A DNA stretch of 64,000 nt, from the NCBI RefSeq assembly GCF_001027925.1, contig NZ_LECT01000007.1:186001-250000 (forward strand), read 5' to 3'. This document shows, piece after piece, positions 3,250-39,554 of the stretch. Source of the DNA: Rhodopirellula islandica (GTDB lineage Bacteria; Planctomycetota; Planctomycetia; Pirellulales; Pirellulaceae). The notes under the pieces were generated by a model. The model did no database searches, was not told the origin of the DNA, and saw only the letters and a list, made by a program, of their open reading frames with translations. A program made the translations under genes and the position numbers. The stretch's first letter is position 1. Every line of letters starts with the position of its first letter.

Positions 3250-3486
3250 CGTCAGCCAGCCAGTGACACACCGCTGCGCCGATTCGCACAGTGGGAGCGT
3301 CTGATTTGCACACTCGAGATTCAATGGGTCAAACCTCTTTCGGGGAGTTGCCCGGCGAGGATGGGCATGTCCTTGGTCGTCCGCGAGTTCGCATTGACGA
3401 TTCGAGATCCAGTCACCGTGCGCTGGGTTCGATCCAGCCGTCGTCCCCCAGCGGCGCCCTACGCTGAACGCTGTGCGAACTGCCTA

Positions 3487-3611
3487 GTGGTCTGTCAGGA
3501 CTTGTTTTTAGGGTAGTGGACGAGGCCACGAGTCCTGAACTGGCGTCAAATCCAAGGACTCGTGGCCTCGTCCACTACGATCAACCCTAACTTTTAACTT
3601 TGACGGACCAC
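3487..3611 (+). repeat. 125-bp palindromic interspersed element, copy 1
   Basis: Terminal inverted repeats GTGGTCTGTCA and TGACGGACCAC (one mismatch) bound the element. Inside is a perfect 22-bp stem (3514-3535 with 3556-3577, TAGTGGACGAGGCCACGAGT..) around a 20-nt loop. Copies of identical length lie at 23665-23789 (inverted) and 39423-39547. The structure resembles a MITE or REP-type element. This copy lies downstream of the topA 3' end. No target-site duplication was established. Confidence 0.85.
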
Positions 3612-3699
3612 GAGATCAACAAGCCGGTGAGCGAGGGACCGCATCGCCTCTCCCACGAAGGCCCCGTCCGGGGCCGGGGTGTCTTCATGACAGGGCATC

Positions 3700-6531: not shown

Positions 6532-9500
6532 TCAAGTGGAGGACCGGGTCCGATCCAAGTGCGTTTTCAAGAACGTTTTCAGCTTGCGACTGCGTGCATG
6601 ATCCACGTCGGTCAAATGAAATGTCAGGGTCACTCGCTCGGCATCACTGAGGTCCAACGTGCCAGTGTCGGAACGAGATTGGAGCACGTCCAATGCCAAC
6701 AATTGCTCCAAATCAATCGCGGACTGAGGCCCCCTCAATTTCAACCGAACACAATCGCTGACCTTGGTTTCAAGCTCTGCCCAATGCGGCAACGGAGTTT
6801 CTTCCTCGCCCGATTCTAACCGAACGGAGACACGGTCCGGGGCAGGGTACTCCACCGCACCTTCGCCCGCGACATTCGACAACATGTCCAGCAACGCTTC
6901 CACCAATTCCAGCGGCCACTGAGGTGGAGTGTTCTCGGGGAACCCCTTCGGCAACGTGTGCCAACGACGCCCCAACACGCGCCACGGTTGCATCGAATCC
7001 GCCGGCTCGTCGCCGTTGGAATCGGATTCCGAAACCATTTCGGCAACCGGAATCTGCGTCTCAGAATCGACTCGCAGAACGGGCGCAGGCTTCGCAACGA
7101 TTGTCGGCGTCGGCAAATTCCCCGTGTTCGTTTCCGCCACTCGACCGTTGACCGTCGGCTGCCAATCCAAGATTTCTCGCGGCTCAGCGGTACGCGTTCC
7201 CGAGATCGCATCGGCCAAGAACGGCGCGGTCGAAGACACCCATTCGTCCGCTTCACAGTTGGCAGGATCCGCCTTCGCCGCCAAGCCTTCCGGCGTTCCC
7301 GCAAACACGACTTGCCCACCGTGGACGCCTGCCCCGGGCCCAATGTCGATCAACCAATCGCAACACTTGATCACGTCCAAATTGTGCTCAATCACGATCA
7401 CCGAATTCCCCAATTCGACCAACCGCTGCATCACGACCAACAACTTCTCAATGTCACCGAAGTGCAAACCGGTCGTCGGTTCGTCCAACAGATAAATCGT
7501 GTGCCCCGTTGCAGGACGAGCCAACTCCGCCGCCAATTTCACTCGCTGAGCTTCTCCACCCGAGAGAGTCGGGGCGGACTGGCCCAGCGTGACGTATTCC
7601 AATCCAACATCACAAAGTGTCTGAATGACACGTGCGATCCGGGAATGCGATGAGAACAACTCGACCGCTTCACCACACGGCATTTCCAGAACATCGGCAA
7701 TCGACTGGCCATGCAGTTTGACTTCCAGCACGTCGTCGTTGTAACGCCGGGCGCCACAATCTTCGCAGGGCACCCAAACGTCAGGCAAGAAATGCATTTC
7801 AATCTTGCGTTGGCCGCTGCCTTCACAAGATTCGCAGCGTCCCCCCGAGACATTGAAACTGAATGTCCGGGGTGTGAAACGCCGCTCGCGTGCAGCGGGG
7901 ATCTCCGCAAACACAGCCCGAATCAGATCAAACACACCGGTGTAGGTCGCCGGGTTGCTGCTCGGGGAATTCCCCAGCGGAGACTGGTCGACTTGAATGA
8001 CTTTGTTGACGTAACGCAAACCATCGATGCCATCATGCTGCCCCGGTTTGACCTTGGCCCGGTGCAATCGTCTCGCCAAAACAGGGTAAACGATGTCATT
8101 GATCAGCGAGCTTTTCCCGCTGCCGCTGGGGCCCGTGATCGCAGTCAAAACTCCCAACGGAATGTCAACGTCCACGTCCTGCAAGTTGTTCTCACGCGCC
8201 CCTTTGATCGACAGGTATTCGACCATCGGCTTGCCCGATTCAGAAATCACCGGGCGGCGAACCGCAGGCAACTCTATTTGCTTTTCGCCGAGCAAGTACG
8301 GCGCGGTGACGGACTGGCTGGCAGGTTCGACCGCATCGGGCTTGCCTTGGGCCACCACCCGACCACCGTGCCGACCGGCCCGAGGCCCGAAGTCGCACAG
8401 GTAATCGCTTCCAGAAATCACATCGTAATCGTGCTCGACCACCAACAACGTGTTGCCTTGGTCTCGCAATCGATGCAGCGCCGCCAGCAATCGCCGGTTG
8501 TCTCGTGGGTGCAAACCAATGGTCGGCTCATCCAGCACATACAAAACGCCACACAAACCACTGCCAAGCTGTGACGCCAAACGAATTCGTTGAGCCTCGC
8601 CACCCGAAAGTGTCGGTGCACCACGGTGCAGAGTCAGGTAGTCCAGTCCCACGTCTCGCAAGAACCGGACGCGAGATTGAACTTCGCGAATCAGCTCGCC
8701 TGCGATCTTCCATTCGCGGCGATCGAGGTCCCACGAATCGATCTCTCGTGACAATCGATCCAGCGGCATGTGCACCAAGTCGCCAATCGTGAAGTCCCGG
8801 AATCGAACCGCCGCGGAATCATCCCGCAGACGCGAACCATCGCAGACCGAGCAGTCGATTTCAGCCACAAAGGCCTCCAACCGCATCCGCAATCCCGGCG
8901 TCAAACGCGAGGCTTCTTCCAGAGCCGGGTAAAACCCTTTGAACTGGAACCGGAACAGGACATTGCCTTCCCCAAAGTGATCACGAACCTCTTCGACGCG
9001 TTCTTTTTCGGCGGACGCGTTGTCATCGGTCGTGTCGCCATGCCGGACCTCGACCCACCGCGGCCCCAAACCATGAAACAGAATCCGTCGCTGCGACACG
9101 GTCAACGAATCGATCGGTTGATGAATCGGAATGCCCGTTGTTCGCGAAAGGGCTCGCAACATCCAGCGACTGACCGCATGATCGACGGACGGCCAAAGCA
9201 ACGCTGCCCCATCGGCCAATGTCGTTTGAGGCGTCCCCATCAAAGCCGCGGGATTGGTCCCCGTTTGGGTTCCCAAACCTTCGCAACCAGGGCACCAACC
9301 GATGCCGGAGTTGAACGAAAAATGGTGCGGGGTCAACTGCGAGAACGACCGACCGCAGGATTCACAAACCAAGTGCTGACTGTGCCGAAGCACATGCCAA
9401 TCGCGTTCGGGTTGATCCGAATCGGCGATCGCCACGTCCATCACGCCAACGCCCAACGACAACGCTTGCTCCACACTGTCACTGATCCGGGATTGTTCCT

Positions 9501-12500
9501 CTGGAGTGATCTTGATTCGGTCGACGACGATCTGCACCAGATGGACCCGCCGCGGGTCGAGTGCTTTCGCGTCATCCAGTTCAACCGTCTCGCCATCGAT
9601 GCGGACGCGGGAGTACCCCATCGCACGATAGCTCTGCCAAGTCGTCAGCGAAGCTTCGCCAGACTGCACCTCGATCGGCGCGAGCAACAAAGCTCGCGTG
9701 CCCTTTGGCAATCCCATCACCTTGTCGATGATTTGATCGGGCGTTTGCGTTCCCACGGGCACCGAACAGTCCGGGCAGTGCATCGTGCCGAGTTTGCTGT
9801 ACAAAATCCGCAAGTAGTCATAGACCTCGGTGACCGTTCCGACGGTACTGCGTGGAGAATGACCGAGGTTCTTTTGCTCCAGCGCCACCGCGGGTGACAG
9901 CCCTTCGATGCGTTCCGCTTTGGGCTTTTGCACCTGCCCAATGAACTGCCGCGCGTAACTGGACAACGACTCGACATACCGCCGCTGGCCCTCGGCGTAA
10001 ATCGTGTCCATCGCCAGCGAACTTTTGCCGCTGCCACTGGGACCACAGAAGACTGTCATCGCGTCACGTGGAATCGCCAAATCGACGGATTTCAAGTTGT
10101 GTTCACATGCACCTTCGACCACCACATGGGTCCGAGACTTGGCCGGCGGAGCAACGATGTCACGGATCGCTTGGCCGCGTTTTTTGGCTTGGCGGCGTTT
10201 GATTCCCAACACCTCGGCCAGCGCCGCACCGGTGTAGCTGTCATCCACTTTGGCGACTTCTGTCGGCCGACCTTCGCCGACCACCCGACCGCCACCGGCA
10301 CCACCTTCGACGCCGATGTCGATCACCCAGTCCGCTGTTTTGATCACGTCCAAGTTGTGCTCAACGATCACGATCGTGTTGCCGCGATCGGCCAATCGAT
10401 TGATCACCCCCAACAACAAATCAATGTCGGCAAAATGCAACCCCGTCGTCGGTTCATCCAGCACGTACAGCGTGCGGCCCGTGTCCCTTCGGCTCAATTC
10501 TCGCGAAAGTTTGATTCGCTGGGCTTCGCCGCCGGACAAGGTCGGTGAAGGTTGACCGAGCTTCAAATACTCCAACCCCACATCGACCAACGTCTGCAAC
10601 TTCTCGGCGATCTTGGGAATGTTCTGGAACAAATCCAAGGCTTCCGAGATGTCCATGTTCAGAACGTCGGCGATCGACTTGCCCTTGAACTGAACCGACA
10701 ACGTTTCTCGGTTGTACCGATACCCTTGGCAAACCGGGCACGTCACCCAGATGTCCGCCAAGAAGTCCATTTCCAATTTGGTCGCACCGTTGCCATCGCA
10801 AGCGGCACAACGACCTCCGTCCACGTTGAAACTGAATCGACCGACCGTGTACCCACGAGCCTTCGCTTCAGGCAATTTCGCAAACAGATTGCGAATCTCG
10901 TCGAAGACCTTCACATACGTCGCGGGATTGCTGCGAGGCGTCCGGCCAATCGGTGACTGATCGATCGCGATCGTTTTGTCGAGATGCTCCAGGCCTTCGA
11001 TGGAATCGTGGTCGCCAACATCCGCTTCGGCACCATTGAGCGCATTGCGAAGCGCGGGTTCGACGATCCCGCCAATCAGCGAACTCTTGCCGCTGCCCGA
11101 GACCCCGGTGACGCAAGTCACCACGCCCAGCGGAATGGAGACGTCGATGTCTTTCAGGTTGTGAAAACGCGCCCCGCGAATCGTCAGCTGTTTTGCGGGA
11201 TCAACCGGTCGCAGCTTTTCTCTCGGCGTGATCGCGCGAGCCCCCGACAAGAACGCTCCCGTGACGCTTTCCTGGGATCGACACAGGTCCTCCATCGAAC
11301 CGGCCGCCACGATGTGACCACCTTTGACACCGGGACCAGGCCCAAAGTCCACGATCGTGTCCGCCGCTCGCATCGTGTCTTCGTCGTGCTCGACCACGAT
11401 CAACGTGTTGCCCGCATCTCGCAAACGAGTCAACGTTGTGATCAAACGGTCGTTGTCACGCGGGTGCAAACCAATCGACGGCTCGTCCAAGATGTAAAGC
11501 ACACCCGACAACCCCGAACCGATCTGGCCGGCAAGTCGAATCCGCTGGGACTCACCGCCGGACAACGTCGGCGCGGTCCGGCCCAGCGTCAGGTATTCCA
11601 AGCCCACGCCGAGCAAAAACCCAATCCGCCCGCGAATTTCTTTGAGAGCCTCGCCGGCGATTTGGGCGTTGGTCTTTGAAAGCGGGATGTCACTGAAGAA
11701 CTCCATCAGCGAATCGATGGAAAGCTCACACAAATCGGGAAGCGATTGGCTCTTCGAGCCGGCAAAGTCCTCCGAGCCTGTCGAGAGACGGACCGCGCAC
11801 GCCTGATCGTTCAGCCGTTTGCCATGGCAATCCGGACAATCCATCGTGTTCATGTACTTTTCGAACTGACGCAACTGCATTTTGTTGCGGCTGGTTCGAT
11901 AGCGATCAAGCAACTCGGGAATGAAACCCTCGAAGTTGCCGACATACTTTTTGGCTTGGCGTCCGCCTCGCCAAGTGAACTGCATCGAGTCGTCGGCGCC
12001 CCACAACCAAATGTGGCGAGCGATCTCTGGCAGTTTGTCCCAGCGAGTTTCCAGCATCGTGCCGGGTTCGAGCTCCAGTTCGGCGTCCATCGCATCGGCA
12101 ACACCGCGATAGATATGACGTCGGTAGCGCCCCAGGTCGCCCCATTTGCCGAGCAATGCGATCGCACCTTTGCGAATCGACAGCGACTCGTCGGGGATCA
12201 ACAACTCGGGCACAAACGTGTACAGCCGGCCGATTCCATCGCAGGACGTGCACATCCCTTGCGGGCTGTTGAAACTGAACAGCTGCGGCGTCGGCGGCCG
12301 GAAACTTCGTCCGCAATTGCCGCACGAATACTTCGAAGAGAACAGTTGGTCGTGACGGACCGGAGGCACGTCCTCCCCGTTGGGCGGCCCGACCGAAGTG
12401 ATCAAGGACGACTCGCCCAGTTTCAGCGCCAACTCCACCGCTTCGACCAATCGTGGCCGGTCAATTTGCCCCGCGACAATGCGATCAATCACGACTTCCA

Positions 12501-13167
12501 CATCGTGACGCCGGGTTCGATCCAGCGGCGGTGGATCGCTCAGCCGAAACGTTTCCCCGTCGACACGAGCGCGATTGAACCCTTGTTTGCGAAGGTCTTC
12601 GAACAGGTCGCGGAATTCACCTTTTTGACCGCGAACCAACGGCGCCATCACCCACAGCGTTCCGTCTTCGATCGCAGCTTCCGTTCCAGACTCCTCGGAC
12701 GATTGGTCGTCCTGCCAACCATCGGCGGCCAACTGCACCAATCGATTGACGATGACATCGGTCGTTTGCGCCGCGATTTCGACATCACAGGCTGGGCAGT
12801 GCCCGGTGCCAACGCGAGCGTACAGCACTCGCAGGAAATCGTAGATCTCCGTGATCGTGCCAACCGTACTGCGAGGGTTGTTGCCCGTCGACTTTTGGCT
12901 GATCGAAATCGAGGGACTCAGCCCGGTCACCAAATCGACGTCGGGCTTGGGCATCTGGCCCATGAATTGCCGAGCCGAATTGCTCAGGCTCTCGACATAC
13001 CGGCGTTGACCTTCGGCGTACAGCGTGTCAAACGCGAGCGAGCTCTTCCCACTTCCCGAAACACCCGAGAAACATATCAGCTCACCTCGCGTGAGCGTCA
13101 AATCGACGTCGCGCAAGTTGTGTTCGCGAGCGCCTTTGACGATGATTTCCCGTTGCAACTTGTCCAC
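6532..13167 (-). CDS. uvrA: Excinuclease ABC subunit A, tandem-fused double-length form
   Basis: 2211 residues, about twice the usual 940, from a GTG at 13167. It is the damage-recognition ATPase of nucleotide-excision repair. Two full UvrA copies are joined head to tail. Copy 1 (about 1-1000) has Walker A GVSGSGKSS at 35, a CGNCG..CTSC zinc module, a second GVSGSGKSS, and signatures LSGGESQRI and LSGGEAQRI. Copy 2 (about 1013-1990) repeats the order with GPSGSGKSS twice, CESCG..CPGC, CESC..CEDC zinc modules and two LSGGEAQR signatures. The polypeptide therefore has four ATPase domains and could mimic a UvrA dimer. A 220-residue extension (about 1990-2211, GRRWHTLPKGFP, QWPLELVEALLDML) has no match I recognise. 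Fused UvrA is known in Chlamydia, so the fusion may be a trait of the PVC group. mcsB lies 53 bp upstream. Confidence 0.96.
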   Translation of the reverse strand: MDKLQREIIVKGAREHNLRDVDLTLTRGELICFSGVSGSGKSSLAFDTLYAEGQRRYVESLSNSARQFMGQMPKPDVDLVTGLSPSISISQKSTGNNPRSTVGTITEIYDFLRVLYARVGTGHCPACDVEIAAQTTDVIVNRLVQLAADGWQDDQSSEESGTEAAIEDGTLWVMAPLVRGQKGEFRDLFEDLRKQGFNRARVDGETFRLSDPPPLDRTRRHDVEVVIDRIVAGQIDRPRLVEAVELALKLGESSLITSVGPPNGEDVPPVRHDQLFSSKYSCGNCGRSFRPPTPQLFSFNSPQGMCTSCDGIGRLYTFVPELLIPDESLSIRKGAIALLGKWGDLGRYRRHIYRGVADAMDAELELEPGTMLETRWDKLPEIARHIWLWGADDSMQFTWRGGRQAKKYVGNFEGFIPELLDRYRTSRNKMQLRQFEKYMNTMDCPDCHGKRLNDQACAVRLSTGSEDFAGSKSQSLPDLCELSIDSLMEFFSDIPLSKTNAQIAGEALKEIRGRIGFLLGVGLEYLTLGRTAPTLSGGESQRIRLAGQIGSGLSGVLYILDEPSIGLHPRDNDRLITTLTRLRDAGNTLIVVEHDEDTMRAADTIVDFGPGPGVKGGHIVAAGSMEDLCRSQESVTGAFLSGARAITPREKLRPVDPAKQLTIRGARFHNLKDIDVSIPLGVVTCVTGVSGSGKSSLIGGIVEPALRNALNGAEADVGDHDSIEGLEHLDKTIAIDQSPIGRTPRSNPATYVKVFDEIRNLFAKLPEAKARGYTVGRFSFNVDGGRCAACDGNGATKLEMDFLADIWVTCPVCQGYRYNRETLSVQFKGKSIADVLNMDISEALDLFQNIPKIAEKLQTLVDVGLEYLKLGQPSPTLSGGEAQRIKLSRELSRRDTGRTLYVLDEPTTGLHFADIDLLLGVINRLADRGNTIVIVEHNLDVIKTADWVIDIGVEGGAGGGRVVGEGRPTEVAKVDDSYTGAALAEVLGIKRRQAKKRGQAIRDIVAPPAKSRTHVVVEGACEHNLKSVDLAIPRDAMTVFCGPSGSGKSSLAMDTIYAEGQRRYVESLSSYARQFIGQVQKPKAERIEGLSPAVALEQKNLGHSPRSTVGTVTEVYDYLRILYSKLGTMHCPDCSVPVGTQTPDQIIDKVMGLPKGTRALLLAPIEVQSGEASLTTWQSYRAMGYSRVRIDGETVELDDAKALDPRRVHLVQIVVDRIKITPEEQSRISDSVEQALSLGVGVMDVAIADSDQPERDWHVLRHSQHLVCESCGRSFSQLTPHHFSFNSGIGWCPGCEGLGTQTGTNPAALMGTPQTTLADGAALLWPSVDHAVSRWMLRALSRTTGIPIHQPIDSLTVSQRRILFHGLGPRWVEVRHGDTTDDNASAEKERVEEVRDHFGEGNVLFRFQFKGFYPALEEASRLTPGLRMRLEAFVAEIDCSVCDGSRLRDDSAAVRFRDFTIGDLVHMPLDRLSREIDSWDLDRREWKIAGELIREVQSRVRFLRDVGLDYLTLHRGAPTLSGGEAQRIRLASQLGSGLCGVLYVLDEPTIGLHPRDNRRLLAALHRLRDQGNTLLVVEHDYDVISGSDYLCDFGPRAGRHGGRVVAQGKPDAVEPASQSVTAPYLLGEKQIELPAVRRPVISESGKPMVEYLSIKGARENNLQDVDVDIPLGVLTAITGPSGSGKSSLINDIVYPVLARRLHRAKVKPGQHDGIDGLRYVNKVIQVDQSPLGNSPSSNPATYTGVFDLIRAVFAEIPAARERRFTPRTFSFNVSGGRCESCEGSGQRKIEMHFLPDVWVPCEDCGARRYNDDVLEVKLHGQSIADVLEMPCGEAVELFSSHSRIARVIQTLCDVGLEYVTLGQSAPTLSGGEAQRVKLAAELARPATGHTIYLLDEPTTGLHFGDIEKLLVVMQRLVELGNSVIVIEHNLDVIKCCDWLIDIGPGAGVHGGQVVFAGTPEGLAAKADPANCEADEWVSSTAPFLADAISGTRTAEPREILDWQPTVNGRVAETNTGNLPTPTIVAKPAPVLRVDSETQIPVAEMVSESDSNGDEPADSMQPWRVLGRRWHTLPKGFPENTPPQWPLELVEALLDMLSNVAGEGAVEYPAPDRVSVRLESGEEETPLPHWAELETKVSDCVRLKLRGPQSAIDLEQLLALDVLQSRSDTGTLDLSDAERVTLTFHLTDVDHARSRKLKTFLKTHLDRTRSST

Positions 13168-23605: not shown

Positions 23606-23664
23606 GGCAGGTCGGAAATCAAGTGGCATAGGCTTCAGCCGGTGATTGCGTGCAACTCAGGCTA

Positions 23665-23789
23665 GTGGTCTGTCACAGCTAAAAGTGAGGGTTGATCGTC
23701 GTGGACGAGGCCACGAGTCCTTGGATTTCACGCCAGTTCAGGACTCGTGGCCTCGTCCACTACACTAAAAACAAGTTCTGACAGACCAC
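23665..23789 (-). repeat. 125-bp palindromic interspersed element, copy 2 (inverted)
   Basis: Same ends (GTGGTCTGTCA/TGACAGACCAC, perfect here) and same 125-bp length as copies at 3487 and 39423, but in the opposite orientation: the loop reads TTGGATTTCACGCCAGTTCA, the complement of the others with one change. It lies between the convergent genes ending at 23605 and 23841. Confidence 0.85.
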
Positions 23790-23840
23790 TCGAAGCCTGA
23801 GCTACAATTTCAACCTGACACTTCTTCGCTCGGTCTTGAG

Positions 23841-37714: not shown

Positions 37715-39416
37715 CGACCTGTGCGCGGACTTCGAGCACAAATGGCAAACCGATCAATCGCCCAGCATTGAATCCTTTCTAACCGAGGACATTCCGCCGG
37801 ACGAACGGGACGTCCTGCTGGCGGAACTGATTGTGTTGGATATCGATTATCGCCGACGACGGGCTGAGCAACCCACCGAGCAAGACTACCTGGATCGTTT
37901 TCAAGACAACGCCCAGGTGATCCGCGACGCATTTCGTGGAAACGGCCAACCCAAGCGAGCCTTCATCCCACCGTCGGTGGAGCAACTGGGAAAGCGATTC
38001 CCCAATTTGAAGATCACCGAACTACTCGGCGCGGGCGGAATGGGTGCGGTCTACAAAGCACGCCAAGAAGGCCTGGATCGTGTCGTTGCCCTTAAAATCC
38101 TCCCCGAAGAATTCGGACACGATGTCAAGTTCGCATTGCGGTTCACTCGTGAAGCTCGCACGCTCGCGAAATTGAACCATCCGAATATTGTCTCGGTCTA
38201 TGAGTTCGGACACGTCGACGACACGTACTATTTCTTGATGGAGTACGTTGACGGGTCCACGCTGCGTGATGTGGTCGCGGCCGGCCAACTCGCCCCCGCC
38301 CATGCGCTCGCGATCGTGCCGCATCTTTGCGACGCGCTCCAGTTCGCTCATGACAACGGCGTCATCCACCGCGACATCAAACCAGAAAACATCCTGATGG
38401 CGGTCGATGGCTCGGTGAAGATCGCCGACTTCGGACTTTCGCGACTCCTCGGCGATCAAGACCAACCATCAGCGCTCACCGGCACCCACCAGATCATGGG
38501 AACGCCGCGGTACATGGCCCCTGAACAACTTGAAGGTGCACGTGGCGTCGACCATCGCGCCGACATCTATTCGCTGGGCGTCGTGTTCTACGAAATGCTG
38601 ACGGGTGAACTTCCGATCGGTCGTTTCGCGGCCCCATCCCAAAAGGTCGAGATCGATGTTCGTTTGGATGATGTCGTTCTGCGAACACTGGAAAAGGAAC
38701 CTCGGAGACGCTATCAACGAGCCAGCCAAATCAAATCCGATATGCAGTCCATTGCGTCCGGTGACCGGGCCGCGCTCGCTCCAACCCAGATCGTGGACTC
38801 GGCGTCACAACGAGACCGTCTCCCTTCCTCCGCTGGGATGCACGAGCAAGAACTCGCCGGCCGTTTGCTCCTGACACGTCGCCAACTCATGGAGCGGGTC
38901 AAATCAGCGTTGCGACCTCTGGGTGTCGGCCAGGTGCTTCAAATTATGATCGGAGTCGCTCTCATCGCGCTGGGTGCTTACTGCTGGGCCCCCAACACGC
39001 ACGTGCCACATCGACTGGTCAGCGGTGTGATCGTGCACGTCTACGGGTTGTTCTTGATCATTTCGGCGGCCAACGTCTTGGTTCGAATCAAACGCATCGA
39101 CACGTCCCAACCGATCACCGAAATTCGCGAGAAGCTCGGCGCCGTCAGGCGTTTTTCTTTGTGGGTCGGTCCCGTCATCGGCTTCGCATGGTGGTTGATT
39201 TGGATCCCCGTTGTCGTGGCCGCAGGGTTCGATCAGGTCCTGCACCCCAACTCACTTTACCCGTCACTGATTGTGGGCGTGATCGGAATCGTCGTCTCAT
39301 GCGGTTTGTATGCCATGGCAATGAAATCAGAACTCGCGCGTCAAAAGATCGGCGGCCGAAGTGTCACCAATGCCGAACGAGAACTCACACAAATCGAACA
39401 AGCCAGCATCCGCTGA
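37665..39416 (+). CDS. Membrane-bound Ser/Thr protein kinase paired with the ECF sigma factor
   Basis: 583 residues from ATG 37665, overlapping the sigma gene by 50 bp. A 100-residue N-terminal region (LERIDDLCADFEHKW..PSIESFL) is typical of planctomycete kinases. The Hanks-type kinase domain covers about 115-370: glycine loop GAGGMG (122-127), ATP lysine K144, HRDIKPEN with catalytic Asp237, DFG at 255-257, and the activation segment end GTPRYMAPEQ. After a linker, four hydrophobic helices (about 425-560) anchor it in the membrane, with almost no extracytoplasmic sensor domain. It probably relays a membrane-associated signal to the co-encoded sigma factor. Copy 3 of the 125-bp element begins 6 bp after its stop. 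Confidence 0.93.
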   Translation: MSIRQKKLPIATLERIDDLCADFEHKWQTDQSPSIESFLTEDIPPDERDVLLAELIVLDIDYRRRRAEQPTEQDYLDRFQDNAQVIRDAFRGNGQPKRAFIPPSVEQLGKRFPNLKITELLGAGGMGAVYKARQEGLDRVVALKILPEEFGHDVKFALRFTREARTLAKLNHPNIVSVYEFGHVDDTYYFLMEYVDGSTLRDVVAAGQLAPAHALAIVPHLCDALQFAHDNGVIHRDIKPENILMAVDGSVKIADFGLSRLLGDQDQPSALTGTHQIMGTPRYMAPEQLEGARGVDHRADIYSLGVVFYEMLTGELPIGRFAAPSQKVEIDVRLDDVVLRTLEKEPRRRYQRASQIKSDMQSIASGDRAALAPTQIVDSASQRDRLPSSAGMHEQELAGRLLLTRRQLMERVKSALRPLGVGQVLQIMIGVALIALGAYCWAPNTHVPHRLVSGVIVHVYGLFLIISAANVLVRIKRIDTSQPITEIREKLGAVRRFSLWVGPVIGFAWWLIWIPVVVAAGFDQVLHPNSLYPSLIVGVIGIVVSCGLYAMAMKSELARQKIGGRSVTNAERELTQIEQASIR

Positions 39417-39422
39417 TTTCGA

Positions 39423-39547
39423 GTGGTCTGTCATGACTTATCCCGAGGGTAGTGGACGAGGCGACGAGTCCTGAACTGGCGTCAAATCCAAGGACTCGTC
39501 GCCTCGTCCACTACGATCAACCCTAACTTTTAGCTGTGACAGACCAG
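39423..39547 (+). repeat. 125-bp palindromic interspersed element, copy 3
   Basis: Same orientation and length as copy 1, starting 6 bp after the kinase stop. The central stem reads GTGGACGAGGCGACGAGTCC and pairs perfectly with its right arm: relative to copy 1, C3527 is replaced by G39463 and its partner G3564 by C39500, so pairing is kept. The right end reads TGACAGACCAG, one base off the full inverted repeat. Confidence 0.85.
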
Positions 39548-39554
39548 CAGCTTC

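Follow-up and report, generated by a model that had tools for sequence, protein, structure and literature searches.

A 125 bp palindromic element is present three times in the stretch of Rhodopirellula islandica DNA analysed here (64 000 nucleotides in full; hereafter the window), and it raises the question of what moved it and from what it was assembled. The original prediction, made from the letters alone, considered either a MITE mobilized by a transposase that is absent or a domesticated RNA or DNA structure. The three copies are present at window positions 3487–3611, 23665–23789 and 39423–39547, with copy 2 inverted, so that the predicted length, positions and orientation are borne out in the sequence. 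As judged from sequence comparison, the element is an IS630-derived MITE in multiple dispersed copies. Two points go beyond what had been proposed: the core is a repeat in its own right, namely a REPIN, and one of the arms is the fossil 3′ end of a transposase gene. With the ends of an IS630 MITE and a REPIN core, the element is a chimeric MITE/REPIN.

A 123 bp frame, running from TGGTCTGTCA to TGACAGACCA between 4 bp CTAG-type repeats, suits the unit better; the 125 bp frame is 2 bp too long because its outermost G and C belong to these target repeats. The terminal inverted repeats proposed for all three copies stand in part, with exact GTGGTCTGTCA at four of the six ends and variants at the right ends of copy 1 (GTGGTCCGTCA) and copy 3 (CTGGTCTGTCA). 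The central hairpin has the predicted loop of 20 nt, but the stem on either side is 23 bp long and not 22 bp as given; a single stem mismatch is found, in copy 2. The core stem motif has six matches in the window compared with a shuffle mean of 0.01. Relative to shuffled sequence, copy 1 folds with −76.2 kcal/mol (z = −10.8) as RNA and −43.4 (z = −10.2) as DNA. The coordinates of the features are collected in Table 1.

Table 1. Features of the three copies in the window (positions are those of the window).
Feature	Position	Strand	Basis or remark
Left target repeat of copy 1, CTAG	3484..3487	+	Sequence
Copy 1, 123 bp chimeric MITE	3488..3610	+	Sequence, genome copies
Fossil transposase C-terminus in arm A, YPKNKS*	3495..3515	-	IS counterparts YPKIKM*, YPKIRL*
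Core of copy 1: GTAG-tagged REP dimer (REPIN), 23 bp stem, 20 nt loop	3513..3578	.	Bare copies, RAYT-like locus
Arm B of copy 1, counterpart of IS 5′ end	3579..3610	+	Comparison with IS ends
Right target repeat of copy 1, CGAG (single difference from CTAG)	3611..3614	+	Sequence
Target repeat of copy 2, CTAG	23662..23665	+	Flank reading
Copy 2, 123 bp chimeric MITE, inverted	23666..23788	-	Sequence
REPIN core of copy 2, one stem mismatch	23698..23763	.	Stem comparison
Second target repeat of copy 2, CTCG on + strand	23789..23792	+	Flank reading
Left target repeat of copy 3, CGAG; CTAG in empty-site orthologues	39420..39423	+	Flank reading
Copy 3, 123 bp chimeric MITE	39424..39546	+	Directly 3′ of protein-kinase-like ORF ending at 39416
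REPIN core of copy 3; subfamily with G-C form of covarying stem pair	39449..39514	.	Stem comparison
Right target repeat of copy 3, GCAG	39547..39550	+	Flank reading

The source genome comprises 7.43 Mb in 55 contigs. The three copies in the window had been taken to imply many more, and a genome holding only these three would have spoken against that view; the search found the element's core in at least 70 places, a floor that is drawn from the retrieved loci. The 40 genome candidates that were scored, out of 136, are all copies at 95% identity or higher, and the end motif GTGGTCYGTCA occurs 108 times in the genome compared with four times for a reversed-pattern control. The loop motif was located at 72 places in the retrieved loci, and at 57 of these the target repeats are separated by exactly 123 bp; two of the 72 loop matches lack the stem and are due to chance, which leaves the 70 element places.

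Target-site duplications, which the original prediction had named as something to look for, probably take the form of CTAG-type 4 bp repeats. Identical 4-mers are found on both sides in 26 of the 57 copies and are CTAG in 22 of these, with GTAG/GTAG and CTAC/CTAC among the other identical pairs. A G at the outer base is present on both sides in three copies, on the left only in one, on the right only in one and on neither side in 52 (p = 5e-4), and the corresponding counts for a C at the fourth base are two, two, one and 52 (p = 0.011). The flanks favour a 4 bp repeat over a TA repeat, with most copies being compatible with both. ISY100, a member of the IS630 family, duplicates TA according to the relevant text of PMC2170065, which also cites work on an IS630 preference for CTAG. 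CTAG is itself scarce in the window (27 occurrences, where equal frequencies of all 4-mers would give about 250), with 13 in called ORFs and 14 in spacers, ten of the latter in divergent spacers.

The site of copy 3 can be compared with orthologous sites, as a kinase-like orthologue (89–93% identical protein) is present in four relatives. In two of these the site is empty and reads TGATTTCTAGCTTCTAG (gene end TGATTTCTAGCTTCTAGC), and the source genome reads TGATTTCGAG-element-GCAGCTT. The third relative has a CTAG array at this position, TGATTCCTAGCTCCTAG, together with another insertion, and the fourth does not align. Copies 1–3 have no counterparts in the syntenic stretches of the four relatives, and the REP tag, with up to one mismatch allowed, is absent from the 12 stretches that are syntenic to these copies; copies 1 and 2 have no clean empty site because the spacers of the four relatives do not align. 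A longer version of the element is present in a relative of the same genus (G006), where the distance between the CTAG repeats is 389 bp in four loci and 390 bp in a fifth (L125–L129). It consists of the element and a nested insert between 9 bp copies of CTCGTCGCC. CTAG is found on both sides in all five of the loci read, and eight such end pairs were listed. L127 and L128 have flanks in common, and this flanking sequence also occurs without the element in L145 and L146, where it reads GGATACGAGAGCC; the L127 junction reads GGATA-CTAG-element-CTAG-AGCC. With these shared flanks, the five loci represent four settings and provide one more near-empty site, and L127 and L128 may be one insertion that was copied with its surroundings.

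A full-length transposon with the same ends, for which the original prediction had suggested looking, was found in relatives and, as far as a DDE_3 profile search reaches, not in the source genome. When 14 genomes were searched with DDE_3, 30 loci matched, and each of these was examined for the ends of the element. Both ends surround a transposase, 1.22–1.24 kb apart, in L357 and L347 (same genus) and in L345 (same family); one such end lies beside a piece of transposase in L353, L362 and L365, and these ends were not found in the remaining loci among the 30. Two public MAG loci (L211 and L271) are IS630-family elements of about this size with both ends. A public genome collection contains at least 118 loci with the end pattern; a homologue of the IS630 transposase is present in 19 of the 118 end-motif loci listed and lies within 20 bp of the motif in 16 of these 19. 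Among the 80 public records that were listed as having the end motif, 68 are labelled as planctomycetes. Going by the record labels, the motif is also found in Desulfococcaceae, Bacteroidia, cyanobacteria and Neolewinella (L226, L253, L228, L233 and L284), and an IS630 homologue adjoins it in L226 and L253. HTH_32 and DDE_3 score above the Pfam cut-offs in the IS transposase; the DDE halves of L347 and L345 lie above the NCBIfam IS630 cut-off, with their HTH halves matching below it, and the DDE frame of L357 contains a stop. The terminal inverted repeats are thus common to the element and to full-length IS630-family copies.

In the source genome, the DDE_3 profile search identified two IS630-type loci (L031 and L032), neither of which has these ends: those of L031 are of the CTAAGCACGTC kind and L032 has an end reading CTAGTGCCTCCGG. 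Both were rejected as a source and, because the IS630 loci of this genome have other ends, the proposal of an absent transposase fits as far as the DDE_3 search reaches. Among the other candidates, L315 and L225 were discarded as autonomous parent copies, because what lies between their end motifs is an unrelated gene or a different IS; L280 was not counted as a full-length parent, since the IS630-like HTH piece between its ends is accompanied by unrelated sequence and masked bases. The MITE alternative of the original prediction is supported by the copies, the CTAG repeats, the empty orthologous site and the matching IS630 ends in relatives.

The two arms correspond to the two ends of the IS. 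Arm A shares 27 of 33 bases with the 3′ end of L357, and arm B shares 28 of 33 with the 5′ end. The 3′ end of L357 matches arms A and B equally well (27 of 33 bases each), and the 3′ ends of L353, L362 and L365 match arm B slightly better than arm A; since the base counts do not favour arm A, its assignment relies on the codons together with the GGGTAG junction. The IS transposases end in YPKIKM* (L357 and L345), YPKIRL* (L353) or YPKIRV* (L347), with the stop inside the terminal repeat. The reverse complement of arm A in the 57 aligned copies encodes YPKNKS* in 36, YPKIRL* in one and other variants in 20, a few of which are without the stop. Because its codons and stop match the IS C-termini, arm A is read as the fossil end of a transposase gene. 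The element, at 123 bp, has no transposase gene of its own, and only the last codons and the stop remain.

The 66 bp core is not IS sequence. It consists of two inverted REP units with GTAG tags on the outside and, matched by description, is a GTAG REP dimer (REPIN) of the kind reported in the text of PMC3733652. A single REP unit has a weak internal stem by eye. The core tag GTAGTGGACGAGG occurs 201 times in the genome and its reversed control does not occur. In relatives, positions 27–92 of the query, which correspond to the core, are often matched without the arms, and the source genome contains bare dimers (for example GTAGTGGACGAGGCAACGAGTCC...CTAC) that differ in their loops and have unrelated flanks. 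Among 20 further tag loci, 12 are bare dimers or single units, six are MITE copies (some of them broken), one is a tandem array (L112) and one is unclassed (L123). At each of the 70 exact AGTGGTCTGTCA ends, the loop on the inner side is that of the MITE; because these ends carry one loop and the bare dimers carry varied loops, the MITE has multiplied as one unit.

In the tandem array (L112; contig C10, 83800–86200), a 186-residue ORF (L112:920–1480) has four REP units on either side, eight in all, in REP-dimer arrays with a period of ∼119 bp. The ORF contains the motif PDHIHMVW, which we take to be of the HUH type. It matches NCBIfam REP_Tyr_transpos with an E value of 3.1e-9 and a score of 36.9, below the curated value of 80, and Pfam Y1_Tnp with an E value of 0.042. 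The other 11 Y1_Tnp loci of the genome have neither the core REP nor the end motif in the retrieved stretches; since these 11 loci are without the REP and the Pfam Y1 search omitted L112, the RAYT-like ORF was recognized only from the tandem array. A PDB search with this ORF gave no convincing match and a viral scan gave no match. From these sequence features, the RAYT-like gene is a diverged candidate and is probably the core's own transposase. The IS end carries GTAG in CTACCCTAAAATTAAG, and the GTAG tag of the REP is the opposite strand of C-TAC, which includes the Tyr codon; this correspondence suggests the site at which the core was joined.

Similar ends enclose other cores elsewhere. The exact end CTAGTGGTCTGTCA is present in 12 of 149 sampled genomes of the family, and the cores between these same ends differ among the elements read, with GTAGTGGATCTTGTTAAAGATCC dimers in G010 (same genus) and G172, a GTAGCGAAAG-type core in G012 and AGCCG...CGGCT palindromes in G165, G026 and G112. 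Other genera have the same ends with different palindromic cores.

The element is very probably a non-autonomous derivative of an IS630-family (Tc1/mariner-type) element with a REPIN core, spread at CTAG by an IS630 transposase acting in trans. Arm B would represent the 5′ terminus of the IS and arm A its 3′ terminus, including the last transposase codons and the stop. Between the two, a GTAG-tagged REP dimer, a type of hairpin repeat linked with RAYT transposases, would have replaced the remainder of the transposase gene, which was lost. An autonomous relative would supply the IS630 transposase in trans, which would cut at the terminal repeats, and the whole 123 bp unit would insert at CTAG, so that copies spread. 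Entry of the REPIN was probably at the IS's own GTAG (opposite C-TAC with the Tyr codon), either by RAYT action or by recombination at the 4 bp match. The comparative basis for this scheme comprises the matching ends, the fossil C-terminus, the CTAG target, the empty site, the bare REPINs and the amplified longer unit; we infer the role of this particular IS lineage as the transposase source, the cut-and-paste movement and the manner of REPIN entry.

Two other modes of mobilization were weighed against this scheme. The whole 125 bp unit could be a large REPIN moved by a RAYT (Y1) transposase, with the outer repeats incidental, as might be supposed from a core that is a GTAG-tagged dimer and from a genome with a RAYT-like gene flanked by the same REPs. 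However, the unit moves with its ends at CTAG, as seen in the 389 bp version and the empty site, and has one loop at every exact end, whereas other loops are found in bare REPINs; its arms match IS630 ends and codons, and other cores lie between the same ends. We regard this explanation as very improbable. Scarcely credible is an origin from another CTAG/YTAR-targeting IS of the IS5 or IS701 type. These types make 4 bp YTAR repeats, and such an origin would explain the 4 bp duplication, including the GTAG/GTAG and CTAC/CTAC pairs among the 26 of 57 copies in which the flanking 4-mers agree. Against it, none of the 30 PF01609 (IS4/IS5) loci that were read, from 40 matches in eight genomes, has a transposase bounded by these ends, and these transposases were rejected as a source; the sole near case (L207) is a transposase fragment nested in such a MITE, and IS630 elements do carry the ends.

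Whatever their origin, the copies might be retained chiefly for a function as RNA or DNA hairpins, such as bidirectional termination between convergent genes. A crude ORF rule placed 63 of the 70 copies (the flanks of the other seven being too short), with 27 between convergent genes, 25 between tandem genes, nine between divergent genes and two inside a short ORF. The excess of convergent over divergent settings has p = 0.028 against the spacer lengths of the window, a small background of eight convergent and seven divergent gaps, but avoidance of promoters accounts for this context equally well. The stems are 98% conserved compared with 91–93% for the subterminal arms, a contrast that is biased because the copies were gathered partly by core similarity. 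One core stem pair covaries (C-G in 42 and G-C in nine of 57 copies); it is, however, the only core stem position with two-sided change, and one informative pair is too little to argue for RNA selection by covariation. An Rfam search of the window gave no matches above the gathering score, and the lack of counterparts of copies 1–3 in the four relatives also speaks against retention for function. Maintenance mainly as functional hairpins is considered unlikely.

Several known systems share parts of this architecture. RUP of Streptococcus pneumoniae and the Correia elements of Neisseria, named as IS630-derived MITEs in the pertinent text of PMC2817692, are likewise non-coding, share terminal inverted repeats with IS630, have many copies and are presumed to move in trans. 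As far as that description extends, the present element differs in having a REPIN and not leftover IS sequence as its interior, an arm that keeps the transposase stop and C-terminal codons, and flanks that fit a 4 bp repeat. The GTAG REP dimers or REPINs with RAYT, as portrayed in the corresponding part of Di Nocera (2013; PMC3733652), have in common with the core the outside GTAG tags, the head-to-head dimer, the bare copies and the array around a RAYT-like gene; in contrast, the dimer here is locked in a larger unit that has itself multiplied with one loop. The same text places R. baltica among the species with several GTAG-REP families. The closest precedent found for the present element is provided by the GTAG-15 dimers of Anabaena variabilis, described there, in which a REP dimer is regularly embedded in a longer inverted repeat; that account gives the outer palindrome no stated transposon origin, whereas the outer arms here are IS630 termini. 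MITEPsy1 of Pseudomonas syringae, as outlined in PMC3189936, is similar as a 100 bp MITE with a 4 nt CTAG or YTAA duplication, but is tentatively assigned there to IS5 and has different terminal repeats. A search of the open-access literature found no description of an IS630 MITE combined with a REPIN core. Both MITEs and REPINs are familiar kinds of repeat, and what is unusual here is that the two are joined in one unit.

For bacterial MITEs and REPs, origins usually have to be pieced together from partial remains. The present case offers a nameable parent IS lineage and, besides, a fossil stop codon, REPINs in bare form, a RAYT candidate and a site without the insertion, which makes it testable how a MITE gains a foreign hairpin core. 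Where REPs are counted in such genomes, copies carried within the IS630 MITE may be tallied along with free ones. A broader proposal, which we put forward tentatively and as possible rather than likely, is that the IS630-derived MITEs of this bacterial family are hairpin cassettes, in which the same CTAG-bounded IS ends repeatedly took up different REP dimers at the GTAG opposite the terminal Tyr codon, that two unrelated transposition systems share one element, that a hairpin core is required for the success of short IS630 MITEs and that this lineage duplicates 4 bp and not TA.

Some further arrangements were observed. In L056 (contig C17, ∼216619) both arms are arm A, giving an almost perfect palindrome, such as fold-back copying of a single half might produce. 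Elements with GGATTATTCA-like ends are inserted inside MITEs of the same superfamily in L160, L162 and L207, and in L207 a DDE_Tnp_1 transposase fragment is nested in the MITE. In a relative (G002, contig C1, ∼1906500–1909200; L135), a superfamily MITE with a different GTAG core is part of a 349 bp tandem unit, and four ends are found in this array at 349 bp spacing. Elsewhere in the window, an ORF of 2211 residues on the minus strand (6532–13167) resembles by eye two UvrA proteins fused head to tail and is adjoined by a TopA-like ORF.
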